A DNA stretch of 64,000 bases from Melampsora larici-populina 98AG31. Taxonomy: Eukaryota > Basidiomycota > Pucciniomycetes > Pucciniales > Melampsoraceae. The stretch covers positions 384,606 through 448,605 of the forward strand of contig NW_006768813.1 in assembly GCF_000204055.1 (NCBI RefSeq). Direction: 5' to 3'. A program made the translations under genes and the position numbers. The notes below the pieces were generated by a model. The model worked only from the letters and a program-made list of their open reading frames with translations. It was not told where the DNA came from and did not search any database. Below, one piece after another: positions 19,739 to 51,759 of the stretch; the first letter of the stretch is position 1; every line of letters starts with the position of its first letter.

Positions 19739-22735
19739 TTAAGAATCTTTGAAAAATAAATTTGTGAGGGTTTGCTGCTTGGCAGTTTGGGCACAGACTA
19801 AGCGGTAATGTCTTACTGAGGCCCTAATGGCACGTTCCCACCCTTTCACTACACAAAATGTCATCTTTACCGGGCGGTAAAGAAAACTACTGACATAGAA
19901 AAGTCCTGAGGCAACAGGAAGAGAGCTAAAAATCTGAAAAAATATGCACCTTGTTCCTAGATGTTGGGGCGTCATGACGAGTATTTTTTTGTATTTTACA
20001 CACAGATATTGGTTAATGTACTAACAATAAAGGCTGAGAATCATCAAAAACCCACCTGTAACAATACCTGAAATTTGGCCCTTGACTTTGAAGACAGGAT
20101 TTTGGAATCTTCAAACATCAATAACTTTTGCAGTTCTGAATCAAATCACTCGATTTGAAGTGCATTAAAAAGGTGAGCCTTTCCTCTACATTTTTCATTG
20201 AGACATCACATCTGTAGCTGGTCTAAAAAAGATCCTACAGAGCAATTCATGCAGAACTGTTTGAACATATGTAGAGTGTTTAAATGACTAGATGGCACCT
20301 TACTAACATTATGAAGTGTGAAGGAGAATAGTTCAGCTTTTGAATGAACCAAAAATCGAGTTATTTGGAGCAGAATTGCAAAAGTTATTGAAGTTTTTAG
20401 ACCACAAAATATTGTCTTCATACTCATGACCCAAATTTCAGGTATTGTTACATGTGAGTTTTTGATGATTTTCAGCGTTTATTGTTAGTACATAAACCAA
20501 TATCTGCGTGTAAAATACAAAAAAATACTCATCATGACGCCCCAACATCTAGGAACAAGGTGCATATTTTTTCAGATTTTTAGCTCTCTTCCTGTTGCCT
20601 CAGGACTTTTCTACGTCAGTAGTTTTCTTTACCGCCCGGTAAAGATTACATTTGGTGTAGTGTTTTGCTACATTATATTCTTCATAGGCCATAAATCCCA
20701 ACATGATCTCTGAAGCTTTGAGGAACTCTTGATGAGTTGGTCGAGGCGGTGGTGGTGTTATCTCAACTTTAGCCTTTTCTTTCATTTCTTCTTCTATGCT
20801 TGCAACAATATCTTTGGGTGTCCATTCTTCTAAACCACTTGAATGCTTGCCAATTGGATTGAGAAGCTCAGAGAGTGACATTCAGTTTGGTTTATGGACA
20901 AGCTTCAACCTTTCAAGACTGTCCAAGTCGCATCTTAAAGTCTCTGTAGCTTCATCATTGATTATTGGATCTGAATCGAAATCCTCAGTATGGTCATGAT
21001 TATCTTGACCCTTGACCAATCCATCAGGATTTTGAACGGACAGAATACCTGACTTTTGCCAGAAGTTTGCAATTGTCGTGTCGGAGACCCTAAACCAGGC
21101 CTCGGAAGCAAGCTCCATAGCATCCAGTTGATGAATCTTGTAGATCTCACCAATTGGGATTTGGAGCTTGTAACAATCAATCACATAGTTGATAAATTTG
21201 GATTGGTAACGACACTTGAAGTTGGCAATGATACCTGCATCAAGTGGTTGGACATGAGATGTAAGATTTGGAGCAAAGAATTTGAGGCGCATGTTTGTTA
21301 AAGGTCTGTCTGGGTTGACCAAGTGACCAGAAAAGTTTTCGACAGGAAGTAATATATTGCGACCCTCCAATCTAAGCTCCTGATCCCAGGATTCAATCCA
21401 CTCAATAAAGATTCCAGTCTGCATCCAAGCTTTTGTGTTGTTCCAATAGTAGAAGCCAAGTTGCTTGCCTGTCTTCCCATGAAAGCACACAGGTTTATGA
21501 GCTTTTCCTATGATGAAAGGATGACACTTATTGGATCTGTTGGCATTGATTGCAAAAGCATACGTCAGGCAATGCTTTTCTGACTTGATCCCAGACTTTG
21601 CATTGAAAGCTAATCCCTTGTCCGGTGGAATTCTACAGGAACGTAAAGTACATCAGCAAAATGAAAGGATGGCTAAATTATTGTAAAAAAGACATACCCA
21701 TAAAATAGGCCAGTCTCATCCATATTATAGATATTGGCAAGATGGTATAGATCCGTGATTGCACACACACAAGACCTCTCTGCAGCAACAGTATCAGGTG
21801 AAGCTAAACCAGCCTCACCATGACCTTTGACGGAACGCAGGCCCGTTTGGCTCTTGAAACTGGTCAAGCACCCCTCAGAGAGACAGAGTCGGTCTTCATC
21901 TGGTACCTTGAAGAGGTCTGCAAAGCGATTCCACATTGTACGCATCACTGAGCCACTTAAGATAAGACCCAAGTGTTCAGCCTGAGTCACCCAAGTCTCA
22001 AGTGCTTGAGTAACTTGAGGGTGCTTGGTTGAAGTTATTTGCTTGGAGTTCAGACCAACCCCAGAATTATAGTCGGCTCGGAACTGGGTCTCTTTCTCTT
22101 CCCTCAAGCATTCCAAAAGCCGAGGCTGTCCAAATTGGAGCTCGGGATGCACTTCTTTAAATCTTTGAGTGGTCTTAGTTTGCTTGCCCCTATTAGCATG
22201 ATGCCAGTCTAGGATTTTGATTTGCTGAGCAAGTGTTGGGTTGACCTTCTTCACGACTGTTGCCTTTTTATTTTTGACTTTGTTTTTGGTGGAAGGGTTT
22301 GGCTTCAAAGTTTCCGTATTTTTACGCTTTTCTAGAAACACAGTTCAAAGGTCAAAACATCGTCCATTTGAGAAAGACAACTTTGATTGATCACAATGAA
22401 AAGTTCATAGACTCACTGTTCACTGCTTTTAACTTCACTGGATGCGTCGGATCAGCCTTGAGAACTAGCACCTCCAATGCAGCCTTCTCCTCCTTGTTAA
22501 GGTCAATGGCAGCACAAGCAACATCTCCGACTTCTTTGATGTGTTCCAACACCTTCCACTTGTCAACAAGGTTGGCTGATTGATCCATGAACCTTTCTTC
22601 AGCTTCAGTAAGTTTTTTTCCTGAGCTCATCAATTCTTTCAAAGGCTGTAATTGAGCATCATTTTTGGATTTCAATGTTTCAAATCCTTTCTCAATGTGA
22701 GAAATGTTGTATATAGAGAGGTCCTGAGGAAGCAT
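19739..22735 (-). pseudogene. Pogo-type (CENP-B/DDE_1) transposase, broken
   Basis: Exons 22417-22735, 21698-22331 and 21632 downward, about 675 codons in total if the insert is ignored. Order: N-terminal unknown segment, HTH of CENP-B type (NPTLAQQIKILDWHHANRGK, then FGQPRLLECLREEKE), DDE domain with NMDETGLFYG, CHPFIIGKAHKP, ILLPVENFSGH and LTSHVQPLDAGIIANFK, and a C-terminal QQTLTNLFF that resembles the PCNA-binding tail of pogo transposases. Three defects: the second catalytic Asp (usually VDN) is Glu (VEN at about 21338); an in-frame TGA at 20882-20884; and the 816-bp CACTA-type element inserted between codons for Ala and Gly near the C-terminus. The copy is therefore not expected to make active transposase. 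Confidence 0.85.
19847..20662. mobile_element. 816-bp non-autonomous CACTA-type foldback element inside the pogo transposase
   Basis: It begins CACTACACAAAATGTCATC and ends with the complement of CACTACACCAAATGTAATC, flanked by the 3-bp direct repeat TTT (19844-19846, 20663-20665), the hallmarks of CACTA/EnSpm elements. The inverted arms are long: homology runs from the ends (including the palindrome TTTACCGGGCGGTAAA in both arms) inward for roughly 270 bp with similarity falling toward the middle, so the whole can fold into one hairpin. No coding capacity. Removing it with one TTT rejoins the pogo transposase frame exactly. Confidence 0.85.
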
Positions 22736-30020: not shown

Positions 30021-30045
30021 GTAACTCGAATTATATTGCAATTTT

Positions 30046-33000
30046 ATGTCATCACCTATTCAAGCCGCATCACCTGCCAATACTTCTGCCGATCCCGAGG
30101 ATCTATCGTTGGAAGACGAAACCATCGAACAACTATCTGATTCATCTGATCGCTCTGCCACATCTAACCACACTGTCCTACCTTCATCATCAAACAATCC
30201 TAAAACATCAGTGATTATGAGCTCTCAAACTTCTCCACAACCCACTACCCAGAAAGATTTCGCTGTCATATTAAACCATAACTTAAGCAAATTACAAGCG
30301 ACAGTAATTCTAGGAAAGAACAATTACAATCATTGGGCTCTGGGAATTAGAAGATCTCTCAGAACGTTATGTCTTGACACTTATCTTACCTCGCCTGAAA
30401 AATCACCCGATATTATTGATGAAGAACACCTTGCCAATAAAGAATGTATAACTAATTTCATTCTTAATCGCATGGATGCTTCAAACCAAGCTTATGTAGA
30501 ATCTAAGCTTCAAGTAAGAAATAATGGTGAGGTGGATTTAGAGTACGAACCTTCAAAACTGTGGACGATTGTTAGAAGCAACAAAGCTCCGATATCAGAA
30601 GCTGCCCAATTTCAACTCGACAACCAGCTCGATGAATATCGCCAAGACAATAAAACAACCCTGGAAATTCATCTTGCTAAATTCAGAGAACTGAAAGACG
30701 AATTGATGCTTGCTGGTGGCGATCTCAATGATGGTCAACTGGCTAGAAGATTGATAAAATCGCTTCATCCCGACAATCAAATCATATTATCTAACGTTTT
30801 CGACATGGTAAATCCCTTAACTTACGATGGTGTCGAACAATACATCCTAAAAAAGGAGAAAGAAATTCGAAACCTTCCTCAATTTGCGAACCTCTACAAA
30901 AACCAATCATTCCATCCCGGCGCTCATTTTATAAATCGAAATAATAGCCAATCTCGAAACAATCAGTTTACGAGACCCAAATGTACTGCCGAGCGATGCG
31001 TATGTAAATATGGCAAAGATGAATGTTTTGAAAACCCGAAGAATCAGGACAAGAAAGTTAGATGGCAAAAAGAGTTGATTAAGAAAGGCAGATGGAGGGG
31101 ACAAATCCCAAATCACTTAAAAACGAGCAGCGATTCAAAGATGTTTGAACATCGATCTTCATCAAGTGTTCAACAAGATACTGATATCGATCAAGAATGT
31201 GATGAATTAACTGATGCGATGAATTCGATGAATGTCACCAGCGATGATAGTCAACCTACCGTCTTTCATATCGATTACTTTTGTAGTAATAAGGCAGTAG
31301 AAGCTAAAGTTCCAAGCAACCTATTTGGATTAGCTGATACAGGTTCATCACATCACATGTTTAACAATCTAAAACATTTCGATCCAAAGTCACTAACTCC
31401 GAACCCTGATCCGAGTAAAAGACTCAACTTAGCTGGCGGTAGCGATACTCTCAAAATCGAAAAGATCGGAACGGCTTATTTGTTAGACGTTGATGGAAAA
31501 GTCATGAAATTTGAAAATTCATTATATGTCCCTCATCTGAACAAGAATCTTATAGCTGCTGGTGCTCTCATCAAGAAAGGTGTTGTCTCATCTATCAATC
31601 CAACCAAACCTCATCTCTTTGAATTGAATCTAGGCAAGAAGACCCTATTCCGAGGATTCTTCTCAGGCAATCTCATGATAATCAAATTAGTCGAATGCCC
31701 GGTACGTCAAATTCCATATTCAGCATCAATAAATCAATCTGACACTTTAATTAATCTTCATAATCGATTAGGTCACCCTAATTTCGCGTACCTTCGGAAA
31801 ATGATTAAAGAAAAGATGATTGATGGAATTTCCGAAAATTTTGATTTATCTAAACCTGATGATTGCATAGCTTGTATCAAATCCAAGAGCGAACGACCTC
31901 CTTTTTCAAATTCTAGACCCCGTGCTCAAAATAAACTAGATAATGTTCATGTAGACTTGAGTGGGATTGTTAGAGGATACGTCAATAATAATTATTTATA
32001 TTACATCCTGTTCACCGACGACTTAACTGGCATGCGTTTCGTATACTTCCTGAAATCAAAAGATAAAGTTTCTGTATTCAACGCACTTTGTGCATTCATC
32101 ACGTTTGCGGAGCGCCAAAGTGAACGAAGAGTGAAATGTTTTACCTTAGATCAAGGTTCCGAATTTTTCAATTCAATCTTTATTCCATACTGTAAAGAAA
32201 AAGGTATTTGGCTACATGAAACAGCAGCATATACCCCTGAAGAAAACGGAGTATCGGAGCGATCTAATAAGACCATCACCTATAAAGCTAGAGCCCTACT
32301 TCAACACTCAAATGTTCCACCAAGTTTCTGTTTCGAAGCAGTAAACACCACCGTCTACCTCGACAACCGCACCATCTCCCTCGCTTACAACCAAGGAAAG
32401 ATGACTCCTTTTGAAGGATGGTACGGCAGAAAACCATCAATATCACATATACGTACTTTTGGTTGTGGAGTTGAATACATCATCAGAAAACCTCAAAGAG
32501 ACGGTAAATTTCATGCCATAACTCGAACTGCTATACTACTTGGTTTTTCAACAGATAATTTCAACTATAGAATATATGATCTTGAACTGAAGAAGATAAT
32601 AACATCCCACGACGTGAAATTCCGTGAAGAATTCTTTCCTTTTCGAAAGACAATTAAATTTAATTACGAGCATTTATTTTCAAGAAAAGACTTACAAGAT
32701 CTTGAAGATTCAAACCCTGGATTCGATACAGTTATCAATGTCGACGATGATGATTACCCAACTATCATCAATCCCCAGCCTGACATGAACCCAATTGTTA
32801 CACCGGAGTCTGAACCTCCGAGTGATAACATTGGTAATTCTCCAGCAATTCAAACAATTCCATCTGATAATCCTGTGGAGTCTGAACCTCCACCAGGACA
32901 AGCAACAGATAGTGAAGAAAACACCACAAACCAACCAACTATCCGACGATCAACAAGAGATAGAAGAGTCCCTGATAGATTTACGCCATCTACTCAGCAT

Positions 33001-34677
33001 GCTTTTTGGGCTGATATCAATGCTTTCATTGCCGGTGAAGACGACGAATTTTACGGATTCAGTACAATGCCAACCGTGAGGCTCATAAATGAACCAAAGA
33101 CTTACAAACAAGCTTTGAAATCACCACAAAAGAAAGAATGGATGGACGCAATGAACAAAGAACTTAAATCAATTGATCAAAGAAAAGTTTGGAAAATTGT
33201 GAAGAGACCAAAAGGTAGATCTGTAGTTGGTGGTCGATGGGTTTTCAGAATCAAACCTAACTTAGATGGATCAATTGCTAAATACAAAGCCCGCTATGTC
33301 GCAAAAGGGTTCTCACAAGTCCCTGGAATCGATTATCACGATACCTACTCACCCACAGGCAAACCAGCCTCACTCCGTTTGCTGTTTGCTGTTGCTGCAC
33401 TAAATGGATGGCCTGTTCATTCAATGGATGCAATTTGTGCATTCTTAAACAACAAACTCGACTATGAAATTTATATGGAACTGCCAGAAAATCTCAAAGA
33501 ACTGTATGATGATGATATGGTCGCTTGTCTATTAAGAACGATCTACGGTCTCAAGCAATCAGCAAAATATTGGAGTGATGATGTGACGGATTTTCTTAAA
33601 TCGATTGGATTCTTACAGTCTGAAGCAGATGCCTGTGTATTCATTCGAATATCATCTAATGGTACCAAATTCACTGCAATGTACATTCATGTTGACGACA
33701 TGGCGATTACTGGAAATGAAATTGAAGAAATCAAGAAATTAATTGCTAGCCGTTGGGAAATGGAAGACCTAGGTATCTCACATTGTATTGTAGGTATTCA
33801 AATCAGCAGAACATCCCAATTCTCATACGCCATTGGTCAACCCGCCATGATTGAAAGTGTATTGGAGAGATTTGGAATGATCAATTGTAAACCAGCAAGC
33901 ACACCACTTCCAGCCGATCAAAAGCTCAGCCGAGCCAGTGACTTTGACGCACAAGACTTTGCTCGCCAGAACCTACCATACAGAAACGGAGTTGGATCAT
34001 TGATGTACCTCTCTCAATGTACACGTCCCGACATAGCATACGCTGTTGGTGTGTTATCGCAGCACTTAGACAGACCCTCCCGTGCCCATTGGAACGCCCT
34101 CATTCACGTTTTACGATACCTCAGAGGAACCACCCACTTATTTATTGAATACTCTGCTGATGACAAAGGCTTATCAGGAAATCAATCTTGGAACTGTCCG
34201 TATGGTTTCTCTGATGCTGACTGGGCTGGAAATAAGGATAATCGCAGATCAACAACAGGTTATGTATTCAAGTTCTTAGGAGGAGCAATTAGTTGGAAAA
34301 GTCGCCTTCAACCAACAGTTGCGCTATCTAGCACAGAGGCCGAATACCGAGCAACAACCGAAGCCGGGCAAGAGGCTACCTGGCTGCAAAACCTACTCAT
34401 GTCTTTTGGTTTTGATATCACGCAACCTACTCGCCTTCATTGTGACAATCTTGGCGCCATCCACCTCACATCAAAGACCATCTTTCATGCTCGTACCAAA
34501 CACATCGAGATACAATATCACTGGATTCGGGAGTTGGTAAAGCGTGGAACAGTGGAACTGCAACACTGTCAATCTCACAAAATGATCGCGGACATGCTCA
34601 CTAAACCCTTGGGTAAGGCACCTTTCCAATGGTTAAGAAAATCTATTGGACTTCACCACCGTGAACCAACATCATAA
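30046..34677 (+). CDS. Ty1/copia Gag-Pol polyprotein, intact
   Basis: One frame of 1543 codons without interruption. Order: Gag with UBN2-like region (NYNHWALGIRRSLRTLCLDT, about residue 90), Cys-containing segment CTAERCVCKYGKDEC (about 310), aspartic protease GLADTGSSHHMF (about 430), GAG-pre-integrase LHNRLGHPNFAYLRKMI with CIACIKSKS (zinc-binding HHCC), integrase with VHVDLSGIVRG, FTLDQGSEF and AYTPEENGVSERSNKTI (D, D, E), then reverse transcriptase of the RVT_2 type (GGRWVFRIKPNLDGSIAKYK, YIHVDDMAITG as the YxDD-type active site) and RNase H (LSSTEAEYRATTEAGQEATW, DNLGAIHLTSKTIFHARTKH). The integrase-before-RT order defines copia. Gag and Pol share one frame, so the Gag:Pol ratio must be set by another means than frameshifting. 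Confidence 0.96.
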   Translation: MSSPIQAASPANTSADPEDLSLEDETIEQLSDSSDRSATSNHTVLPSSSNNPKTSVIMSSQTSPQPTTQKDFAVILNHNLSKLQATVILGKNNYNHWALGIRRSLRTLCLDTYLTSPEKSPDIIDEEHLANKECITNFILNRMDASNQAYVESKLQVRNNGEVDLEYEPSKLWTIVRSNKAPISEAAQFQLDNQLDEYRQDNKTTLEIHLAKFRELKDELMLAGGDLNDGQLARRLIKSLHPDNQIILSNVFDMVNPLTYDGVEQYILKKEKEIRNLPQFANLYKNQSFHPGAHFINRNNSQSRNNQFTRPKCTAERCVCKYGKDECFENPKNQDKKVRWQKELIKKGRWRGQIPNHLKTSSDSKMFEHRSSSSVQQDTDIDQECDELTDAMNSMNVTSDDSQPTVFHIDYFCSNKAVEAKVPSNLFGLADTGSSHHMFNNLKHFDPKSLTPNPDPSKRLNLAGGSDTLKIEKIGTAYLLDVDGKVMKFENSLYVPHLNKNLIAAGALIKKGVVSSINPTKPHLFELNLGKKTLFRGFFSGNLMIIKLVECPVRQIPYSASINQSDTLINLHNRLGHPNFAYLRKMIKEKMIDGISENFDLSKPDDCIACIKSKSERPPFSNSRPRAQNKLDNVHVDLSGIVRGYVNNNYLYYILFTDDLTGMRFVYFLKSKDKVSVFNALCAFITFAERQSERRVKCFTLDQGSEFFNSIFIPYCKEKGIWLHETAAYTPEENGVSERSNKTITYKARALLQHSNVPPSFCFEAVNTTVYLDNRTISLAYNQGKMTPFEGWYGRKPSISHIRTFGCGVEYIIRKPQRDGKFHAITRTAILLGFSTDNFNYRIYDLELKKIITSHDVKFREEFFPFRKTIKFNYEHLFSRKDLQDLEDSNPGFDTVINVDDDDYPTIINPQPDMNPIVTPESEPPSDNIGNSPAIQTIPSDNPVESEPPPGQATDSEENTTNQPTIRRSTRDRRVPDRFTPSTQHAFWADINAFIAGEDDEFYGFSTMPTVRLINEPKTYKQALKSPQKKEWMDAMNKELKSIDQRKVWKIVKRPKGRSVVGGRWVFRIKPNLDGSIAKYKARYVAKGFSQVPGIDYHDTYSPTGKPASLRLLFAVAALNGWPVHSMDAICAFLNNKLDYEIYMELPENLKELYDDDMVACLLRTIYGLKQSAKYWSDDVTDFLKSIGFLQSEADACVFIRISSNGTKFTAMYIHVDDMAITGNEIEEIKKLIASRWEMEDLGISHCIVGIQISRTSQFSYAIGQPAMIESVLERFGMINCKPASTPLPADQKLSRASDFDAQDFARQNLPYRNGVGSLMYLSQCTRPDIAYAVGVLSQHLDRPSRAHWNALIHVLRYLRGTTHLFIEYSADDKGLSGNQSWNCPYGFSDADWAGNKDNRRSTTGYVFKFLGGAISWKSRLQPTVALSSTEAEYRATTEAGQEATWLQNLLMSFGFDITQPTRLHCDNLGAIHLTSKTIFHARTKHIEIQYHWIRELVKRGTVELQHCQSHKMIADMLTKPLGKAPFQWLRKSIGLHHREPTS

Positions 34678-43355: not shown

Positions 43356-45469
43356 TATACCAAATAGGCGATTGTGCGATTGAAAGTTACTTGAAAATTA
43401 TACGAAAGAAGTGGACAAAAGACCCGGTTGGGTTTGGTTGCAATCTGTCAATGTCAAGTAATTCTTCAAACCTCCTTTCAGAAGTATGAAAGAGTATGAA
43501 TCCTTGTTCAAATCAAATAAGTGATGTTTATGAAGAGGACGCTTCCGGAAAGAAACAAATAGAAAACAGAAACAGGGACGACAGTTCAAGAGTAAAAGAC
43601 GTGTGGCTGTGCGTTTAGATAGTTCCGACTCGAGATACGACACCAGGAAGCGCGCCAATGTATTTGAATTGGCTATATCCAGGTTTGGATTATGAATGCA
43701 GAGAGGGGCACTGATGTCGAGGAAGTAAAACGGAATGAGAGATGCGGACAAATGCAGAGACTAATCAGCCCAGTTAATCGGAATGGGAACACATGAGGTC
43801 GATTTGAGGTGGGTTTGATTGAATTGTTTCCTCAGTCTCAAGTTGTGAGCCGCGGCTCACCGCGACGAACTCCAGCACAGAGGGAAGCACATGCGAACAA
43901 TTACTAGGTAACTCGTACCCCGCCAGCCACCATCCGGTATAGCTGGAAGGGACTATCCCGAAAGGGAACGCCTTTGGACTTGCGACACACCAGTTAGTCT
44001 CCAAAAGGCCATACACTAAAGTTGATTGTCTCATGGATTCCCAAAAAACTCATCGCGAGGAAATACTAGCGTTCACGACTCGTCGAAAGGAGCGAATCCT
44101 GAGAATTGATACTCAGACCCCTTGTTTACGGCCACTGCTAAGACCCTGGCGAATTTCTATTCACCTTCTCGTCAGTCTTGCTCTTCTCATACATTCAGCA
44201 AAGGGAGCACGACGAGAACGGGTATCCGCTCTTGATGACCTGCGATACTTTGAATGTACGAAGGTGTCCGTTCCAACACGTCGCTTGAGACCCAATGATC
44301 CACACTACAGCTCGTAAATTCATTGTGATAGATCGTTGCTCGACTGCCTTCAGACAGGGACCAATAAAAAAGTCACTCCTGTCTAATCAAACGAAAGGGC
44401 CGCAGGCCGACGCTGTGGTGTGAGGTCCGGTGGCTTAAGCACACTTCGCCTTCGAAGTTGGTCAGCTCAATACAGCTTGACCATATAGGCTATGATGGCC
44501 AGTGCGAAAACTTATATGAGTTAATACAGTGGAGTAATATAGACTTCTCCCTCAAACTCGAGTGGTGGAGGCCTGGGCATGAAGGGAAGCGATGGTCACA
44601 AGCTGTGACGTGTTACTGGCTAGCGAGACCTAGTGAGACAACTACATGAGGCTGCGACAACTGTTTGCAGTATATGATGTACGATGGAGTGGAAGACTAA
44701 CCCCGAAACCTGAAGAGTGGATTTCAATTTTCCGCTCATCCATCCTCACGCGCTCACTATGAAGACCATAAAAACTATCCATAAAAGGTTCCAGGCAACT
44801 TCCAAATGGTGATTTGGTTCATCAACCCTCATCAACCGCATCAACGTCAGAAGTAAGTTTTCAAATCTTCACACACAAGCTGAATTTGAGATTATAAGCG
44901 TAGTACCAATTGTTAATTTGTTGTTGCCTTTCAATCTGAAAACTTTTGCTGTCAAATCATGATACAGTTGTTTCAAGAAAAAATGTTGTTCTCCTTGTTT
45001 TTTTTTGTATTAATTATTTCAAAGGTGCACTAAAAATTAATGATGTAGACTCTACATAAGAGCTGTAATCAACTTTGTCAAGGGTGCAAAGGCCAAAGAT
45101 CACAATCATTGCTTCCTTTGAGTCCGCAATGCACAACCTTGGTGCCTTTTCAAGGATCAAGGTTACAGTCAAGCTAGATTAGCTTGGCCAGTTGAGAATT
45201 TATTTTTTTATTTTTACACGTATACAGGTAAACATATAAGCATAGCCTTCAAACACGGCAGGCTGTTTAGCCTTCCGCGTCAGTCTGCCACTCATTCACC
45301 CACCACCACATCCTTCCTCACATTGTTCTCAATCACTTTCACATATCCCGTCGATTCTCTTCTGCGACGGGGTTTGTCTTGTACAGTGCCCAAGTCAAGA
45401 TCATTACACTGACCAAATTTTGATCTGGACAATCCATCAAATCCATCAACACTGAACTCTTCACTGCAA
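43356..45469. other. Upstream region of the MADS gene, no further gene supported
   Basis: About 2.1 kb. 43845-43860 holds a near-palindrome (GTGAGCCGCGGCTCAC). A 94-codon frame (44033-44317, plus) and others lack recognisable domains. Poly-T near 45000 and AT-rich sequence lead to the MULE boundary. Confidence 0.4.
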
Positions 45470-45477
45470 TATCAAAA

Positions 45478-48400
45478 GGATTTCACTATTTAACGCCCGC
45501 AAAAAAAAAACCCGAAGCCCCTTTTTGAAAATGACAGGGGGCTGTACGTTTTCCACAGCCCCTTTGCAAAACTTTTTCAAACTTTTTCAAAACTTTTTCA
45601 AACTTTTTGAAACCTCTGTTTGAACTTTCCGAGTTCGAGTTCGACTTCGTTCAAACTTTTTGTGATTTTGTGTTGTGCGTGTGCGTGTGTAAATATCTCA
45701 CTTTGTATGTTTTCATGTATGTAATTTCAAACTGACAGCCAGAACAAAGAGAAATCAGAGAACACTAGACTAAGATAAGTGAGAGTGACCGATTTCCAAC
45801 AGCTAGTTATGTTATGTATTACTCCATGTATGAGTAAGCAGAGAGAGCAGAAAAAGAGGGAAAACAAGAGGGAAAACAATGTATTACTTCATGTATGTAG
45901 CGAGCAGAGAACATATAGAAAGAGAAACAGGGAAAACAAGAGGGAACAACAAAGGTATCGATTTCATTCAAAGCGGGGGAAGGAAATCATCATATTGTCA
46001 GAGATTCGACCCACTTATTCAGCTGTGGTTGGTGTTTGCTAATCCACTGAGGTATCTCGGTGGTTTCGAGCATAGCTGAATTCTTGGGGTAGCCATACAC
46101 TTCCGGGAAAGGAACCGATTTAACAGCCGTGATGCCCAGACTAACAAAGTGTTCGCCATTTACAAAGGCAATCACAATAGGTAGTGGATCGTTATCGTTA
46201 GGAGGCGTGCAATAAGGAAAGAAGGTGTAGCAGTTGATGGTTTTAGGGTTCAAAAGTATCACTGGGCGCTCATAAGTGCTTGCAATTACGTAACCCATGA
46301 GTGGCATTCGTAACCAGTACTCTTGGGTGCATTCAGCTTCTTGATTATCCAGCCGGACAAGTAGGTCATCCACTACTTCATCAGCAAAAGTTTTGGTCCG
46401 GCGAGTTTTGATTGAAGGGGTCGAAATCAGCTGTCTGTGAATATCTTGATTACTCGAGAGTTCTTTCAATAACTGATTCCGAACCGTGAGATAACTTTTT
46501 TTCATAGGTAAACCCAGGGATGAGGCTATAGCATCATATCCGCAATTCCCAAAAGACAGTGGATTGAAGATTGAACATATGTATGGAACAGTAAACAGCG
46601 GTAGCTGCTTTAAGATGCTCTGCTCAAAGGTACGCTGGAGAGTATGTAAGCCAATTGATTGTGATTGGTGAACGTCTGATGTTGGTAGGTCTTCTGAGTT
46701 TGAAGGTTTGGCAGATGTTCCAAACGAGTTGTCTTCCAGTGGAAACACCACAACGCCAAACTCGCGACTAGCTTCCAAAGTGGCCTTGACGTTGGTGTCC
46801 TTTCGATCCAATTTCATATCTTCGGCAATCAAGCATAAACTGAGTTCGGGTATAAGGACACGTTGGATCAAGTAGTCAACTGAGAGAGGCTCCAGTAGTT
46901 GCACCTTGAGCAAAGGTTCGGGTTCGGAAGTCTTAATGAGCTGATTAAGGGAGCTGGTGATTATTTCGAGGCCCTTATAGCCATAACTGGACAAAAGAGC
47001 AATCCATTTAGTCTTTCTAAAGTTTCAATTAGATAAGATGTGAAAACTGCTTACTACCCCGGTTGCTCGACGTGAAATCCATCAAACTGCTTTGCAAAAC
47101 TCAAGGATCGATTGCCGTGCAGGGCCCACTGCTTCTTGGCCTCTTCCAGGTAGGAAGAGGCTTCTTCACCCTTGATGATTTCACTTAAAATGCCCAGAAA
47201 CTTCTTGATTCGACTGGTGAAGTGTCATAAAGAGTCAGGTAAGAAAGACTTTTATTACTGATTGTGTAAACACTTACTTATGTAAACCATCAAAATCGAT
47301 TTCGGTCGGCCAACCCTTGCTTATGCCAGAAGGTATAAGCTCACGCTCAGCCTCATGGAGATGGCAGAATTCAGCGTATTGGCCAAACTGGAACCAAAAC
47401 AAGAGTCTACACATGTCAGATCAAATTGTAGTATTATAAAGGTGTAAAATATAAGATCAAAGACATACATGAAGCGACTTGACATTGGCCATAGCCATCA
47501 GTTGTTCTTTCATATGTAGAAGACGTTTAGATGGCTCTTTCGGAAGCGGATCATCACAGAATGGACACAGAGATAGATTGTGATTGATGGACAATTGGGA
47601 AACTTGACTAGCATCCGAATCGGTATCAGAAGAACCTGAGTGATTTGATTCGGAATATGATTCTGAAGTAGTATCAGTTTGAGTTTCATTTGTCAACACC
47701 GGATTGTTGACTTTGATGACTGAAAGATTGAGCTGAATATCGGCCTGATCGGTCTTTACATCCACAGCCAATCGATTCGGACAGGTGTTTATTTGGTGAC
47801 CGGGAGTTTTGCAATGGCTGCATTTCTTCACCCGCACCACATTAGCAGGCCTTTTAACATTTGTAGACGCCTTGGTAGCGAGTTTTTTAGCCTCCTTAGC
47901 CGCCTCCTTACCCTTTTGGGTTTCTTCGGCCTCAAAATCTGAAATCCATCGGCCCTGCTGACCCACGTGCAACTTTTGGGTTTTGTGTTTCGGTTTCTCA
48001 GTAGATGGAGAGGTTTGAGACATTTCAACTTTTCGTTTCTGGCTGTTGGAAGGTCGGCCACGATTATTAACTTTGACTTCGGCCGATAAGATGGGTACAA
48101 GAGAGTATCTTCCAGTTTCCAATCGGGAAATGTCTTCATACAATCTTTGGAGAGTGTGTTCAGGTAGCTCTGAAAGTAAAGCAAATTTGGATTGAGCGGC
48201 CACCTTAAGCGCGTTGTGAGTTTCGGGTGCGATGTCCATGGCGAGTTTCCACTGGTCATGACAGAGATTTGGCGATAAGTAGTCAGTTTCGTCTCTAGCC
48301 TTTCCGATATCGTGAGAGCACGGAAGCCCCCAAGCCCCACGAAAGGTTCCTGTACAAGGCCTATTGAGTGATTGAGGTAATAGATCATATTGGCTCTTCA

Positions 48401-51129
48401 TTTTCGTGATTGCAAAGTGAGAAACTACACCCGAAACATTCTTGAAAAAAGGTGGAAGGCCTTGAAGGGTTTTTGTCATCTCAATACCCGTGGACACCTT
48501 GATTTCGCTGATCTGTTGATCGCCGGCTTGCTTGAAAGCATTGAAACAAGTCACAAAATCATTATTGCGGCCTTCGAGAAACTGTTTGAGTCGGAAGTGG
48601 CTGCCCTCAACTCGTGAAGTAGAAGAGTTACCGAAGTGGTGATTTTTGGAAGTGAAGAGGGAAACGAATTTTTCGGTCCTATTGAGCCATGTACGTTTAA
48701 GGTAATCAAAAATTTGGTGCTTCTGTGCGATATCGGTGACTTTCTTGAGGTTCGAATCATAGTCTTCTTGTGTCGAAGAAGCTATAAAGGAGACCCAAAT
48801 CTTTAAGAACTCTTTCCAGTCATGATCACTGAACTTCTTCTTGCAGTTTTTGGCGATATTGTGGTTGATGTGCCATACGCACAACAGGTGACCGGAATCA
48901 GGAAATACGGTATTGATAGCATTGAAAAGGGCGGGCTCGGCATCGGTTACAAAGGTTTGTGGTAAACGGATTGGGACGCCTTCTTCCGTCAAATCAAAAA
49001 CAACACTTTTCAATTGATTCATAGCCCATTCGTAATTCATTTCAGTTTCTTCATGCAAGAAACACAAAGCCACGGTGAAAGACTTATGTGTATTGGTTGT
49101 ACCGACTATATGTAGAAGTGGAAGATTAAACCGATTTGTCTTGTAAGTACAATCTAAGCCAAGAACAGTAGGAAATCTTCGAGCTAAGCGAATGGCATCT
49201 GGGCTGGCGAAGAAAAGGTTTTGGAGAGCTCCATTGGGTGCGGTGAGAGTTCGGAATGCCCAGTTGTGACCCGATATCAAGTCAAAGAGCCCCTGAATAG
49301 GTGTTCTACCATTCAACCATCGATCCCTATGTCGAGCACGGATGTTGTGGATGTCACGCAAGAGCGGTTCACAACCAGGTTCGACAGCGAGTAAAGATCG
49401 GATCTGACGAGCACGACATCCAGCAGCATAAAGTAAGTTGATTTCTGCTTCCATCTCGGGTGTAAATCGACGATAGACGGCCAGGTCGTGAGGTTTTTCA
49501 AACGGAGGGTGATTATGTACAAGTTTGGTGGGGCTTTTGCTGTCCTGATGCACAAACCATCGGTTTGATTTTCCTCGGTAATTGAGTGAGATTTCAAAGC
49601 CACAGTTGGTCTTCTTTGTAGAAGTCGAGCGCTCCTTAGCTACAGATGGAACGACGTGACCAAGTGAACATCGGAGGTAGATTCGAAGGGTTCGCTCATG
49701 TTTGGTTTTATGGCTCTTTGTGGCCAAGGCATATCCTTGATGTCGTGCAACAGCCTTCAGGTACATGAGACCGTTGGCCATCTCGAAAAACTGTTTGCCA
49801 ACTTTAGGTGACTCCAGTAATCGTATTGGTGCAGCCCCTAGTAAATAACCACCACATCATCAGCTATCAATTGGGAAAACTCTACAAATCAAACAATGAG
49901 ATACGCACCAATTGGTGGCCAGTCTTCATCTCGCTCTTTGAGAAATTCTTCTACAACACCATCTTCGTCTTCAACAACACCATCGAGATTTGGATTGTTT
50001 GTATCGGTTGTAGAAGTTGTGTTTTGAGTTGGTTGAGTTGAAGAAGACAACGTAATAGGATCAGGAGTTGTGTCAATTTTGTTGGTTAAACTCGATTGTG
50101 TATTTATGATAGCAGATGTGGTGGTTAGGTCAGTTGAAGTTGAAGACGCGTTGGTTGACGTCGTGGGAATGGAAATCACAGTCGGAGTCGTGGTTATGTT
50201 GGTTGATCTGGTGTTTGATGTTACGGGAATGGAAATAGGAGTAGTCGATGTGGTGGGAATAGACAAACCTGGAGGTTCCATAGTAGTGGGTATCAATGAG
50301 GGATGTGGTGGTAAAGGGAAAGATGTCAAGTGCGGTATCGGATGGTTCATATAGAACGGATGAAACGGATATTGGGGAGCATTGAATGAAAACTGCTGAG
50401 ATGATGGTGAACTACTAGGAATCGGAAAGTGAGGAGGGTACAAGTGAGATGAAACACTTTGAGGATTTCCATTCATCAGATGGAATGGATTAAGAGGTGG
50501 TGGATTGTAAGTTGGATAGAAAACGGGTGGTGGATACAAGTATGGTGGTATTGGCTGTTGTATGCATGGTGTGGGAATAGGGTGATCTTGGTTTATCGCC
50601 GGTTGTTGTGGTGTTATTTGTGGAGTGGGAATAGGGTGATCTTGGGGTATTGCCGGTTGTTGTGGTGTTATTTGGGTGGGCAGTTGTGTGGGGGCCATTA
50701 TATGGTTTGCGTGACTTGTTTGTTGAATCACAAACTGTGATTGTAGATGGAGGAGGCTTTGGGGTTGTGGCTGGGGTTCTCAAGGTTTGAGTCCGTGATA
50801 CAGACGGGCCATTGGCCCTCGGTAGAGTATCCTTACGGGAACTTCTTCGTTGTGCGTTGTGCTTCATGACCCGATCCCCCTCTTGCTCTGGGCTTGGGGG
50901 GCGGAAGCTCTTTTTGCAGCCCTGCTATGTGGATTCATAGCCCGGTTTGAGGGGTGGACAGCCCTCTCATTGTGGATGGGGGCTGTTAGGGCAAATAAAG
51001 GCGCTTGGAATGGGGCTTTCAGGTCCAAATAAGTTTGTGTAACTTTGTTTTGGCTCGAAGTTTTTGGAATTACCCGATATGAAAGGGGGCTTCGGGTTTT
51101 TTTTTTGCGGGCGTTAAATAGTGAAATCC
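45478..51129 (-). mobile_element. Complete Mutator-like element (MULE) with 44-bp perfect inverted ends
   Basis: The ends 45478-45521 and 51086-51129 are exact inverted repeats of 44 bp (starting GGATTTCACTATTTAACGCC and containing a run of ten A). They are flanked by the 8-bp direct repeat TATCAAAA (45470-45477, 51130-51137). The 5.65-kb element carries a single spliced gene, open throughout, encoding transposase plus RTC4-like and OTU domains. Identical ends, exact duplication and an open gene point to a recent and possibly autonomous insertion. Confidence 0.9.
45990..50867 (-). CDS. MULE transposase - zinc knuckle - RTC4-like - OTU protease fusion, six predicted exons
   Basis: Exons 50802-50867, 49909-50734, 47469-49837, 47278-47387, 47058-47213, 45990-46986 join in phase to 1507 codons' worth of protein. 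Residues 1-300: Pro/Gln/Thr-rich, disordered. From about 316: FAR1-like N-terminal zinc domain, then the MULE domain with LGLDCTYKTNRF (Asp about 525), TFVTDAEPAL (Asp about 595), LLCVWHINHNI and SRVEGSHFRLK (Glu about 707). A CCHC knuckle CSHCKTPGHQINTC follows, then CPFCDDPLPKEPSKRL and FGQYAEFCHLHEAE, leading into an RTC4-like domain (GYKGLEIITSSL, VDYLIQRVLIPELSLCLIAE, REFGVVVFP). The end is OTU-like: NPLSFGNCGYDAIASSLGLP (Cys about 1324) and FVNGEHFVSLG (His about 1455). Splice signals at each join are sound (GTATGT, GTAAGT, GTGCGT and others). The first exon is the least certain part; an alternative start is the ATG at 50698. Transposition plus a ubiquitin-directed activity is the inferred role. 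Confidence 0.82.
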
Positions 51130-51137
51130 TATCAAAA

Positions 51138-51759
51138 AAAAAATCTCTCAATGGAACACTTTATTCAACCATACTCACACCGTTGTCTGCAATCCTGCAA
51201 CCTATGAACACCAAGGACGTGCAACACTTTATTCTGCCAAGGATTCAGTGTTTGTGCTTGAAAACAATCCAACCCTTTTCATTGACAAGATTAAAGGTGC
51301 TATGTGTGAGTAATGCACAAAATTATAAGCACATCAATTAATTGAGCTTATAAAAGTAAAAGAGACAAAACAGATGGTGTCTTTATTTCTTTGATACAAT
51401 ATGATAAAATAGAAAAAGAGATAAAGAAAACATGAAAGTAAGCTTACCTGTGAGTAATGCACAAAATTATAAGCACATCAATTAATTGAGCTTATAAAAA
51501 TAAAAGAGACGAAACAGATGGTGTTTGAATCTTGGTGCAGAACCTCACAGGTATATGTAGACAAAAATACTAATAGAAGAGAGAGTTAAAAGACAATGAC
51601 ATGTGTATTATGAAATATAATGTAACTAGAATGGTGTATTATCAAATACCGTAGCATAGTAACAGAGATCAAAAAGAAAACAAATCAAATCACAATTCAG
51701 AAATAGAAAAATCAAACAATGAAACATAACCATAACCGTAATTCATAATAACCAATACT
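51138..51759. other. AT-rich flank with a duplicated 76-bp unit
   Basis: No gene. The only structure is the direct repeat listed separately. Confidence 0.4.
51305..51524. repeat. Pair of 76-bp direct repeats
   Basis: 51305-51380 and 51449-51524 are the same sequence (starting TGTGAGTAATGCACAAAATT) with two mismatches, separated by 68 bp. Confidence 0.85.

Follow-up and report, generated by a model that had tools for sequence, protein, structure and literature searches.

A Mutator-like transposon of Melampsora larici-populina with one predicted gene for a transposase, an RTC4 region and an OTU-fold domain

We analysed a window of 64,000 nucleotides from contig NW_006768813.1 of the rust fungus Melampsora larici-populina 98AG31, in which a 5,652-bp element occupies positions 45478-51129. 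Its termini are perfect 44-bp terminal inverted repeats (TIRs), flanked on both sides by the same 8-bp target-site duplication (TSD), TATCAAAA, and its minus strand carries a gene of six predicted exons with a stop-free frame of 1,511 amino acids (aa; Table 1). This element is almost certainly a Mutator-like element (MULE) in which a single gene encodes a transposase, an RTC4 region and an OTU part. An earlier, sequence-only reading of the window had already proposed this architecture. Its perfect ends and exact duplication, its single spliced frame, the transposase residues D529, D599 and E711, the OTU residues C1328 and H1459, and the union of the three parts in one predicted protein were all recovered. 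Its expectation that profile searches would support every part held for MULE and RTC4 but not for OTU. That reading noted neither the host-type introns of the RTC4 part nor the large lineage to which the element belongs.

A 44-bp TIR with an 8-bp TSD agrees with what is expected of MULEs (TIRs, and a TSD of about 8-10 bp). In addition, the protein contains the MULE transposase domain PF10551, with D529, D599 and E711, which we take from known motifs to be the DDE (Asp-Asp-Glu) residues. The zinc knuckle pattern that follows is under the Pfam cut-offs (zf-C2H2_10, E = 0.081; zf-CCHC, E = 9). Kaonashi-type elements are plant MULEs carrying ULP1; the protein has no Pfam match to the ULP1 family at E ≤ 10 and is not of this type. 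The closest named proteins are from Puccinia striiformis (best 33%) and Melampsora americana (40%).

The whole genome (98.3 Mb, 243 contigs) was then searched for element ends and empty sites, as the earlier reading had advised, and both were found. The terminal 23-mer, with at most 2 mismatches, gave 12 matches, against 0 for a reversed-pattern control; the ends are therefore not due to chance. Nine of the 12 matches are exact, and all nine are ends of element copies. Four further copies are located on contigs C31, C1, C29 and C11. Over aligned positions, their identity to the window copy is 99.45% for C1, 99.42% for C31 and 95.09% for C11, while the C29 copy is truncated (99.67% over 3,603 positions). 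The C1, C11 and C31 copies display their own A+T-rich duplications of 8, 8 and 9 bp, respectively (read by eye; the truncated C29 copy was not scored). When the flanks of the window copy are joined with one duplication (199 bp), a full-length match is found at three other places in the genome (85-87%), and alignment of the middle 100 bp displays there a single uninterrupted target. These three places are relative (paralogous) empty sites; the insertion was therefore precise, and occurred into another repeat. The joined flank (45378-45477 + 51138-51236) has 11 matches in total, two of which are the window's own halves.

Two of the copies (C1:4002174-4007821 and C31:630731-636378) are 99.93% identical to each other, with 3 nonsynonymous and 0 synonymous differences. 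Under the revised gene model given below, the C1 copy contains 2 in-frame stops and the C31 copy 3, two of them common to both. Since these common stops are associated with different duplications at different sites, a broken copy most simply moved in trans. An assembly artefact was judged unlikely, as the five copies sit on five contigs. Near-identical copies at different sites are consistent with transposition and, on sequence grounds, the element looks like a Mutator-like DNA transposon that moved recently and seems autonomous. In the C11 copy (L012), about 250 bp of the transposase core, opposite window positions ~48700-48950, do not align with the other copies; this patch (within 48500-49000) suggests a replacement or a conversion.

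The N-terminal part, encoded by exons 1 and 2 with a predicted start, is of low complexity, and exon 2 matches no Pfam family at E ≤ 1. For the fifth intron, before exon 6, a 41-nt candidate (47057-47017) was rejected and replaced by a 68-nt intron (47054-46987), with GTAAGC as donor and GTCCAG as acceptor. Its product, EQPGYYGYKG, restores the conserved PGYYG, and the junction resembles proteins P0002, P0103 and P0104. The RTC4 match reaches 73 bits with the 68-nt intron (250-aa piece), against 46.8 bits with the 41-nt intron (whole protein). The stop at codon 1183 that the C1 and C31 copies displayed under the old model falls inside the 68-nt intron.

The RTC4 region (PF14474, for which the 73 bits compare with a curated cut-off of 23.7) is complete; it follows the zinc knuckle and precedes the OTU part. 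A cellular-type RTC4 gene is present in the same genome, at locus L045 on contig C5. Its frame of 521 aa has an extended charged tail, its layout resembles that of the Rhodosporidiobolus RTC4 protein P0104, and no MULE match was found within 4 kb upstream among the matches listed. The RTC4 regions of L045 and of the window share 43% identity. In L045, frame changes or stops demand introns in the three intervals that hold the RTC4 introns of the window. Once placed, all of them as GT-AG introns, they fall between SLP and FFETA or KFFETA (phase 0), inside the codon that precedes RIK (phase 2) and between PGY and YG (phase 2). The corresponding introns of the window interrupt SLH and FGQYA (phase 0), the codon ahead of RIK (phase 2), and PGY and YG (phase 2); the same three positions and phases recur in L043, an RTC4-only copy. 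The match of three intron positions and phases speaks for the capture of a cellular RTC4 gene as genomic DNA, the route by which a MULE lineage very probably acquired its RTC4 region. In yeast, according to the available part of PMC6162548, the function of Rtc4 is called unclear; the protein is cytosolic and nuclear, and has a genetic link to telomere maintenance.

The OTU domain escapes the standard profile here, with no match to Pfam OTU (PF02338) at E ≤ 10 in the window protein or at E ≤ 1 in 21 aligned members. A weak match to Pfam Peptidase_C33 was obtained for 6 of these 21 members (best E = 0.0094). Searches by sequence among solved structures returned no match for the single exon and, for a profile, only two rows, with E values of 2.3 and 6.7. 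The C-terminal OTU assignment of the earlier reading, not recovered by Pfam, is nevertheless supported by the structural comparison (VIA-align) of a predicted model, which indicates an OTU fold, and by homology to the Pfam-recognised OTU of a sister MULE. The 21 rows are the window and 20 of 30 fetched loci, all stop-free and chosen from the at least 122 exon-6 matches described below; element copies (L013-L017) and loci with stops (L019, L023, L026, L039, L042) were left out. The catalytic Cys and His expected of an OTU cysteine protease are present, and both are invariant in all 21 members, as is the Asn before the Cys. An Asp three residues before the Cys is usual in OTUs. Since this residue is absent from 21 of 21 members, we do not claim membership of the active OTU enzymes; it is present in the sister MULE-OTU proteins and in five P. 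striiformis and plant motifs. Elsewhere in the genome, a span of less than 30 kb (C48:356718-386092) holds six Pfam OTU matches, all on the same strand, with no MULE within 4 kb upstream among the matches listed; it corresponds to a local cluster of OTU genes.

We then looked at how often these parts are associated in the genome. The exon-6 frame, hereafter the RTC4-OTU module, has at least 122 matches, i.e. at least 113 loci (117 of 305 candidates were scored, and the counts are a lower bound), and the window transposase core at least 78 matches, i.e. at least 68 loci (68 of 291 candidates scored). At 66 of these 68 core loci, the module follows in the same orientation no more than 10 kb downstream, and at 62 no more than 2.1 kb downstream. 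A PF10551 search reported 154 matches, and the locus counts that follow are among the matches listed. Together with the core loci, these give at least 148 MULE loci, of which 80 have the RTC4-OTU module within 4 kb, 13 have RTC4 only, 4 have a Pfam OTU without RTC4, and 51 have neither RTC4, OTU nor module, many of the latter matching PF10551 partially. Two of the 13 RTC4-only loci (C19, C25), found by the window transposase, have a module about 7 kb off. Seen from the module, a MULE is found within 4 kb upstream at 80 of 113 loci. The genome contains 118 RTC4 matches, 95 of which are in module loci; of the remaining 23, 14 have a MULE upstream and 9 do not. Thus, 109 of 118 RTC4 matches are in the module or downstream of a MULE, some of the module loci having no MULE match themselves. 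At the RTC4-only loci L043 and L044, the frame ends after RTC4, and neither of two OTU profiles, both of which match their controls, gave a match in the six frames of the fetched stretches.

Two database proteins show other arrangements. P0103 of M. americana (891 aa) combines zinc knuckles and RTC4 with a comparable N-terminal block, and has no MULE or OTU profile match; it could be a deletion derivative, a mis-annotation or a domesticated gene. In P0031 (960 aa), RTC4 (61-198) precedes the MULE core (517-608), in the reverse order, and an AFT match and a sub-threshold FAR1 DNA-binding match were also found. This protein is possibly an independent RTC4-MULE fusion, and RTC4 may for this reason be a recurrent partner of MULEs.

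Selection was estimated from the ratio of nonsynonymous to synonymous substitution rates (omega), using the 28 of 210 pairs with a synonymous divergence (dS) between 0 and 2 and the linker between RTC4 and OTU as an internal control. Median omega was 0.21 for RTC4 (22 pairs), 0.16 for OTU (19 pairs) and 0.79 for the linker (19 pairs), values that are indicators for all three parts as the pairs are non-independent and many dS are near saturation. In the closest pair but one, RTC4 has an omega of 1.54, on very few changes. The low omega indicates that both added domains matter to the element, in a manner that it leaves unspecified.

In a transposase tree of 39 sequences (21 of 36 inner branches starred; midpoint root for drawing only), the window transposase belongs to a clade (100/99) with unnamed sequences, the RTC4-only lineage and a MULE-OTU lineage of its own genome. 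The next wider clade (99/98) adds MULE-OTU proteins of P. striiformis. As MULE-OTU lineages group with and around the window transposase, OTU looks older than RTC4 in this group. The branch for a single origin of RTC4 after MULE has a support of 58/19, and the order of RTC4 gain and OTU loss depends on the same branch.

Several known systems resemble parts of this architecture. In the same genome, L046 and L047 join MULE, zinc knuckle and OTU in one frame of 1,035-1,042 aa; they differ from the window element by having no RTC4, a canonical DGHC motif and an OTU that exceeds the Pfam cut-off. The P. striiformis MULE-OTU proteins recognised by the OTU profile (P0018, P0020-P0024, P0030, P0040, P0058, P0068, P0073, P0101) likewise have a MULE core followed by OTU, with 28-33% identity to the window transposase exon, and ten of them form the nearest well-supported outside clade. 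They differ by the absence of RTC4 (0 of 7 scanned) and, for P0030, P0058 and P0101, by the Asp kept at Cys-3 (3 of 3 printed motifs). These last three, found by the transposase search, have the UniRef name 'OTU domain-containing'. Plant MULE-OTU proteins are also present in Rosa and Glycine. Kaonashi-type MULEs are comparable in combining a MULE with a cysteine protease acting on a ubiquitin-like protein, and differ in that this protease belongs to the ULP1 family. The available part of PMC6446971 describes MuDR-6_HM of Hydra as a MULE with an 'Ovarian Tumour Gene' feature; this likeness is by description only, and the element differs in being cnidarian, with TIR given as 'None' and RTC4 unmentioned in that part. 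From the part of PMC2836005 at hand, ULP1 occurs in Mutator elements, and in Ginger1 transposons the transposase carries an OTU or Ulp1 protease at its C-terminus, for which the authors propose a role in transposition or repair; the Ginger1 transposase is Gypsy-integrase-like and not MULE. Some Helentrons also carry OTU (PMC6431247, available part).

The combination had been regarded as not well described. For MULE with OTU, this does not hold, given MuDR-6_HM and the names of the P. striiformis proteins; for RTC4 in a MULE it does, as no example was found in the literature pairing RTC4 with transposon terms (mostly open-access coverage; Repbase reports lie outside it). The captured RTC4 region is a new feature of an already known kind, the MULE with OTU. 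In the same mostly open-access coverage, the sole match for RTC4, transposition and fungi was PMC9370660, whose available part gives 45 RTC4-type proteins for Puccinia novopanici against 15 for P. sorghi, reads them as an adaptation to DNA damage and mentions no transposon link for this rust genome rich in RTC4-type proteins. In a survey of rust transposons (PMC12210899), no word of the main text begins with OTU, RTC4 or MULE.

As an overall explanation, we consider it likely that a MULE carrying OTU acquired a host RTC4 region and has retained both parts. The ancestor would have been a MULE-OTU transposase that copied part of a host RTC4 gene at the DNA level, together with its introns, and retained it as a functional domain. 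We infer this order because RTC4 is complete and has host-type introns, and because sister transposases have OTU without RTC4. As to the mechanism, the core would cut and paste through DDE chemistry. RTC4, a host domain with a link to telomeres, would anchor the transposase on chromatin or on proteins at DNA ends, and the OTU part would strip ubiquitin, or a tag resembling it, from the transposase or from nearby host proteins, which might keep the complex from destruction or silencing. The earlier reading had likewise suggested that the element may counter ubiquitin-based host control or, by way of RTC4, target particular chromatin. This specific mechanism is put forward tentatively. A wider proposal, also no better than possible, is that the captured RTC4 would be an essential targeting or end-protection module beside OTU de-tagging, that RTC4 would recur as a MULE partner, and that the RTC4 'expansions' of rusts would be largely transposon genes.

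Several observations weigh against this explanation. Frame, homology and site conservation are the basis of the predicted splice model, and the splice sites of L045 were chosen with the intron pattern of the transposon in view; moreover, the RTC4 tree has no supported branch. The predicted OTU model has a mean pLDDT (predicted local distance difference test) of 54.8, and with the canonical Asp at Cys-3 in 0 of 21 members the OTU part may not be a protease. At 33 of 113 RTC4-OTU loci, no MULE match lies within 4 kb upstream among the matches listed. In the L043/L044 lineage, OTU is dispensable, since MULE and RTC4 occur there without OTU in the fetched stretches. Finally, the sites of the C1 and C31 copies imply that a copy can move without an intact protein of its own.

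Other explanations account for some of these facts. The transposase and the RTC4-OTU part could be separate neighbouring genes of the element, given that exons 3 and 6 each form a long open frame of their own and that the splice model joining them is predicted. The spliced frame is nevertheless free of stops, a strict pattern recovered the sites of the last intron in 18 of 20 relatives, the RTC4 region spreads across exons 3-6 with its CPFC motif in the transposase exon, and P0013 has MULE, RTC4 and OTU in one frame; we consider two genes very improbable. It is hardly more probable that the C-terminal part is passenger cargo, i.e. host fragments without function for the element, as in Pack-MULEs. 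This would fit the host-type introns retained in RTC4, the lineage without visible OTU and the known ability of MULEs to catch gene fragments (PMC6431247, available part). It does not fit the low omega in RTC4 and OTU and not in the linker between them, the association retained at 80 of 148 MULE loci among the matches listed, or the invariant Cys and His (21 of 21).

For the OTU part taken alone, a non-catalytic role in ubiquitin binding or in structure, rather than that of a working protease, is a more serious alternative, although we regard it as somewhat unlikely. The Cys-3 Asp that sister MULE-OTU proteins and five P. striiformis or plant motifs keep is missing in 21 of 21 members, and Pfam OTU does not recognise the domain; yet Cys, His and the Asn before the Cys are invariant in the same 21 members, and median omega is lowest in OTU. 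Some OTU enzymes also use a different acidic residue or an Asn. As for RTC4, its role could be that of a decoy, or of a dominant-negative version of the cellular protein, and not that of a tether. The 43% identity to the cellular region and the conservation of the whole region from the CPFC motif would suit such a role, which we consider unlikely; the function of Rtc4 itself is called unclear (PMC6162548, available part).

With respect to the preferred explanation, capture of RTC4 by a MULE-OTU lineage, the element appears to be a clear example of a transposase that has taken up a domain of a cellular gene as genomic DNA and kept it while its lineage spread to at least 80 linked loci. Because 109 of 118 RTC4 matches are linked to the module or to a MULE, counts of 'RTC4 proteins' in rusts, read as DNA-damage adaptation in the available part of PMC9370660, deserve re-examination. 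Moreover, the old idea that ubiquitin-type proteases aid transposition (PMC2836005, available part) can now be tested, as the family has versions with and without each part.

Table 1. Coordinates of the element, its gene and the encoded domains (window positions)
Feature	Position	Strand	Basis or remark
Left target-site duplication TATCAAAA	45470..45477	.	identical to right one; one target in paralogous empty sites
44-bp terminal inverted repeat	45478..45521	+	perfect match to opposite end
Exon 6: RTC4 end, linker, OTU, stop	45990..46986	-	spliced frame
OTU-fold domain	46095..46616	-	C1328 at 46542-46544, H1459 at 46149-46151
RTC4 region, CPFC motif to PF14474 end	46743..47567	-	E 3.1e-20 with revised intron; three introns
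Exon 5	47055..47213	-	phase 2 boundaries at both ends
Exon 4	47278..47387	-	preceding boundary phase 0
Exon 3, transposase core through RTC4 start	47469..49837	-	spliced frame
Zinc knuckle pattern CxxCxxxxHxxxxC	47781..47822	-	sequence
E711	48606-48608	-	downstream of PF10551
MULE transposase domain PF10551	48858..49166	-	E 3.2e-24
D599	48942-48944	-	inside PF10551
D529	49152-49154	-	inside PF10551
Exon 2, Pro/Ser/Thr-rich N-terminal part	49909..50778	-	spliced frame
Exon 1	50837..50867	-	frame continuity; least certain exon; in-frame ATG at 50698 is an alternative start
44-bp terminal inverted repeat	51086..51129	-	perfect match to opposite end
Right target-site duplication TATCAAAA	51130..51137	.	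identical to left one

Two other mobile sequences were observed in the window. Positions 30028-34674 of the plus strand contain a 1,549-aa open retrotransposon polyprotein frame (RVT_2, E = 4e-55), of the Copia type as judged from its family, and positions 20885-21652 of the minus strand a DDE_1 transposase fragment (E = 1.4e-26).
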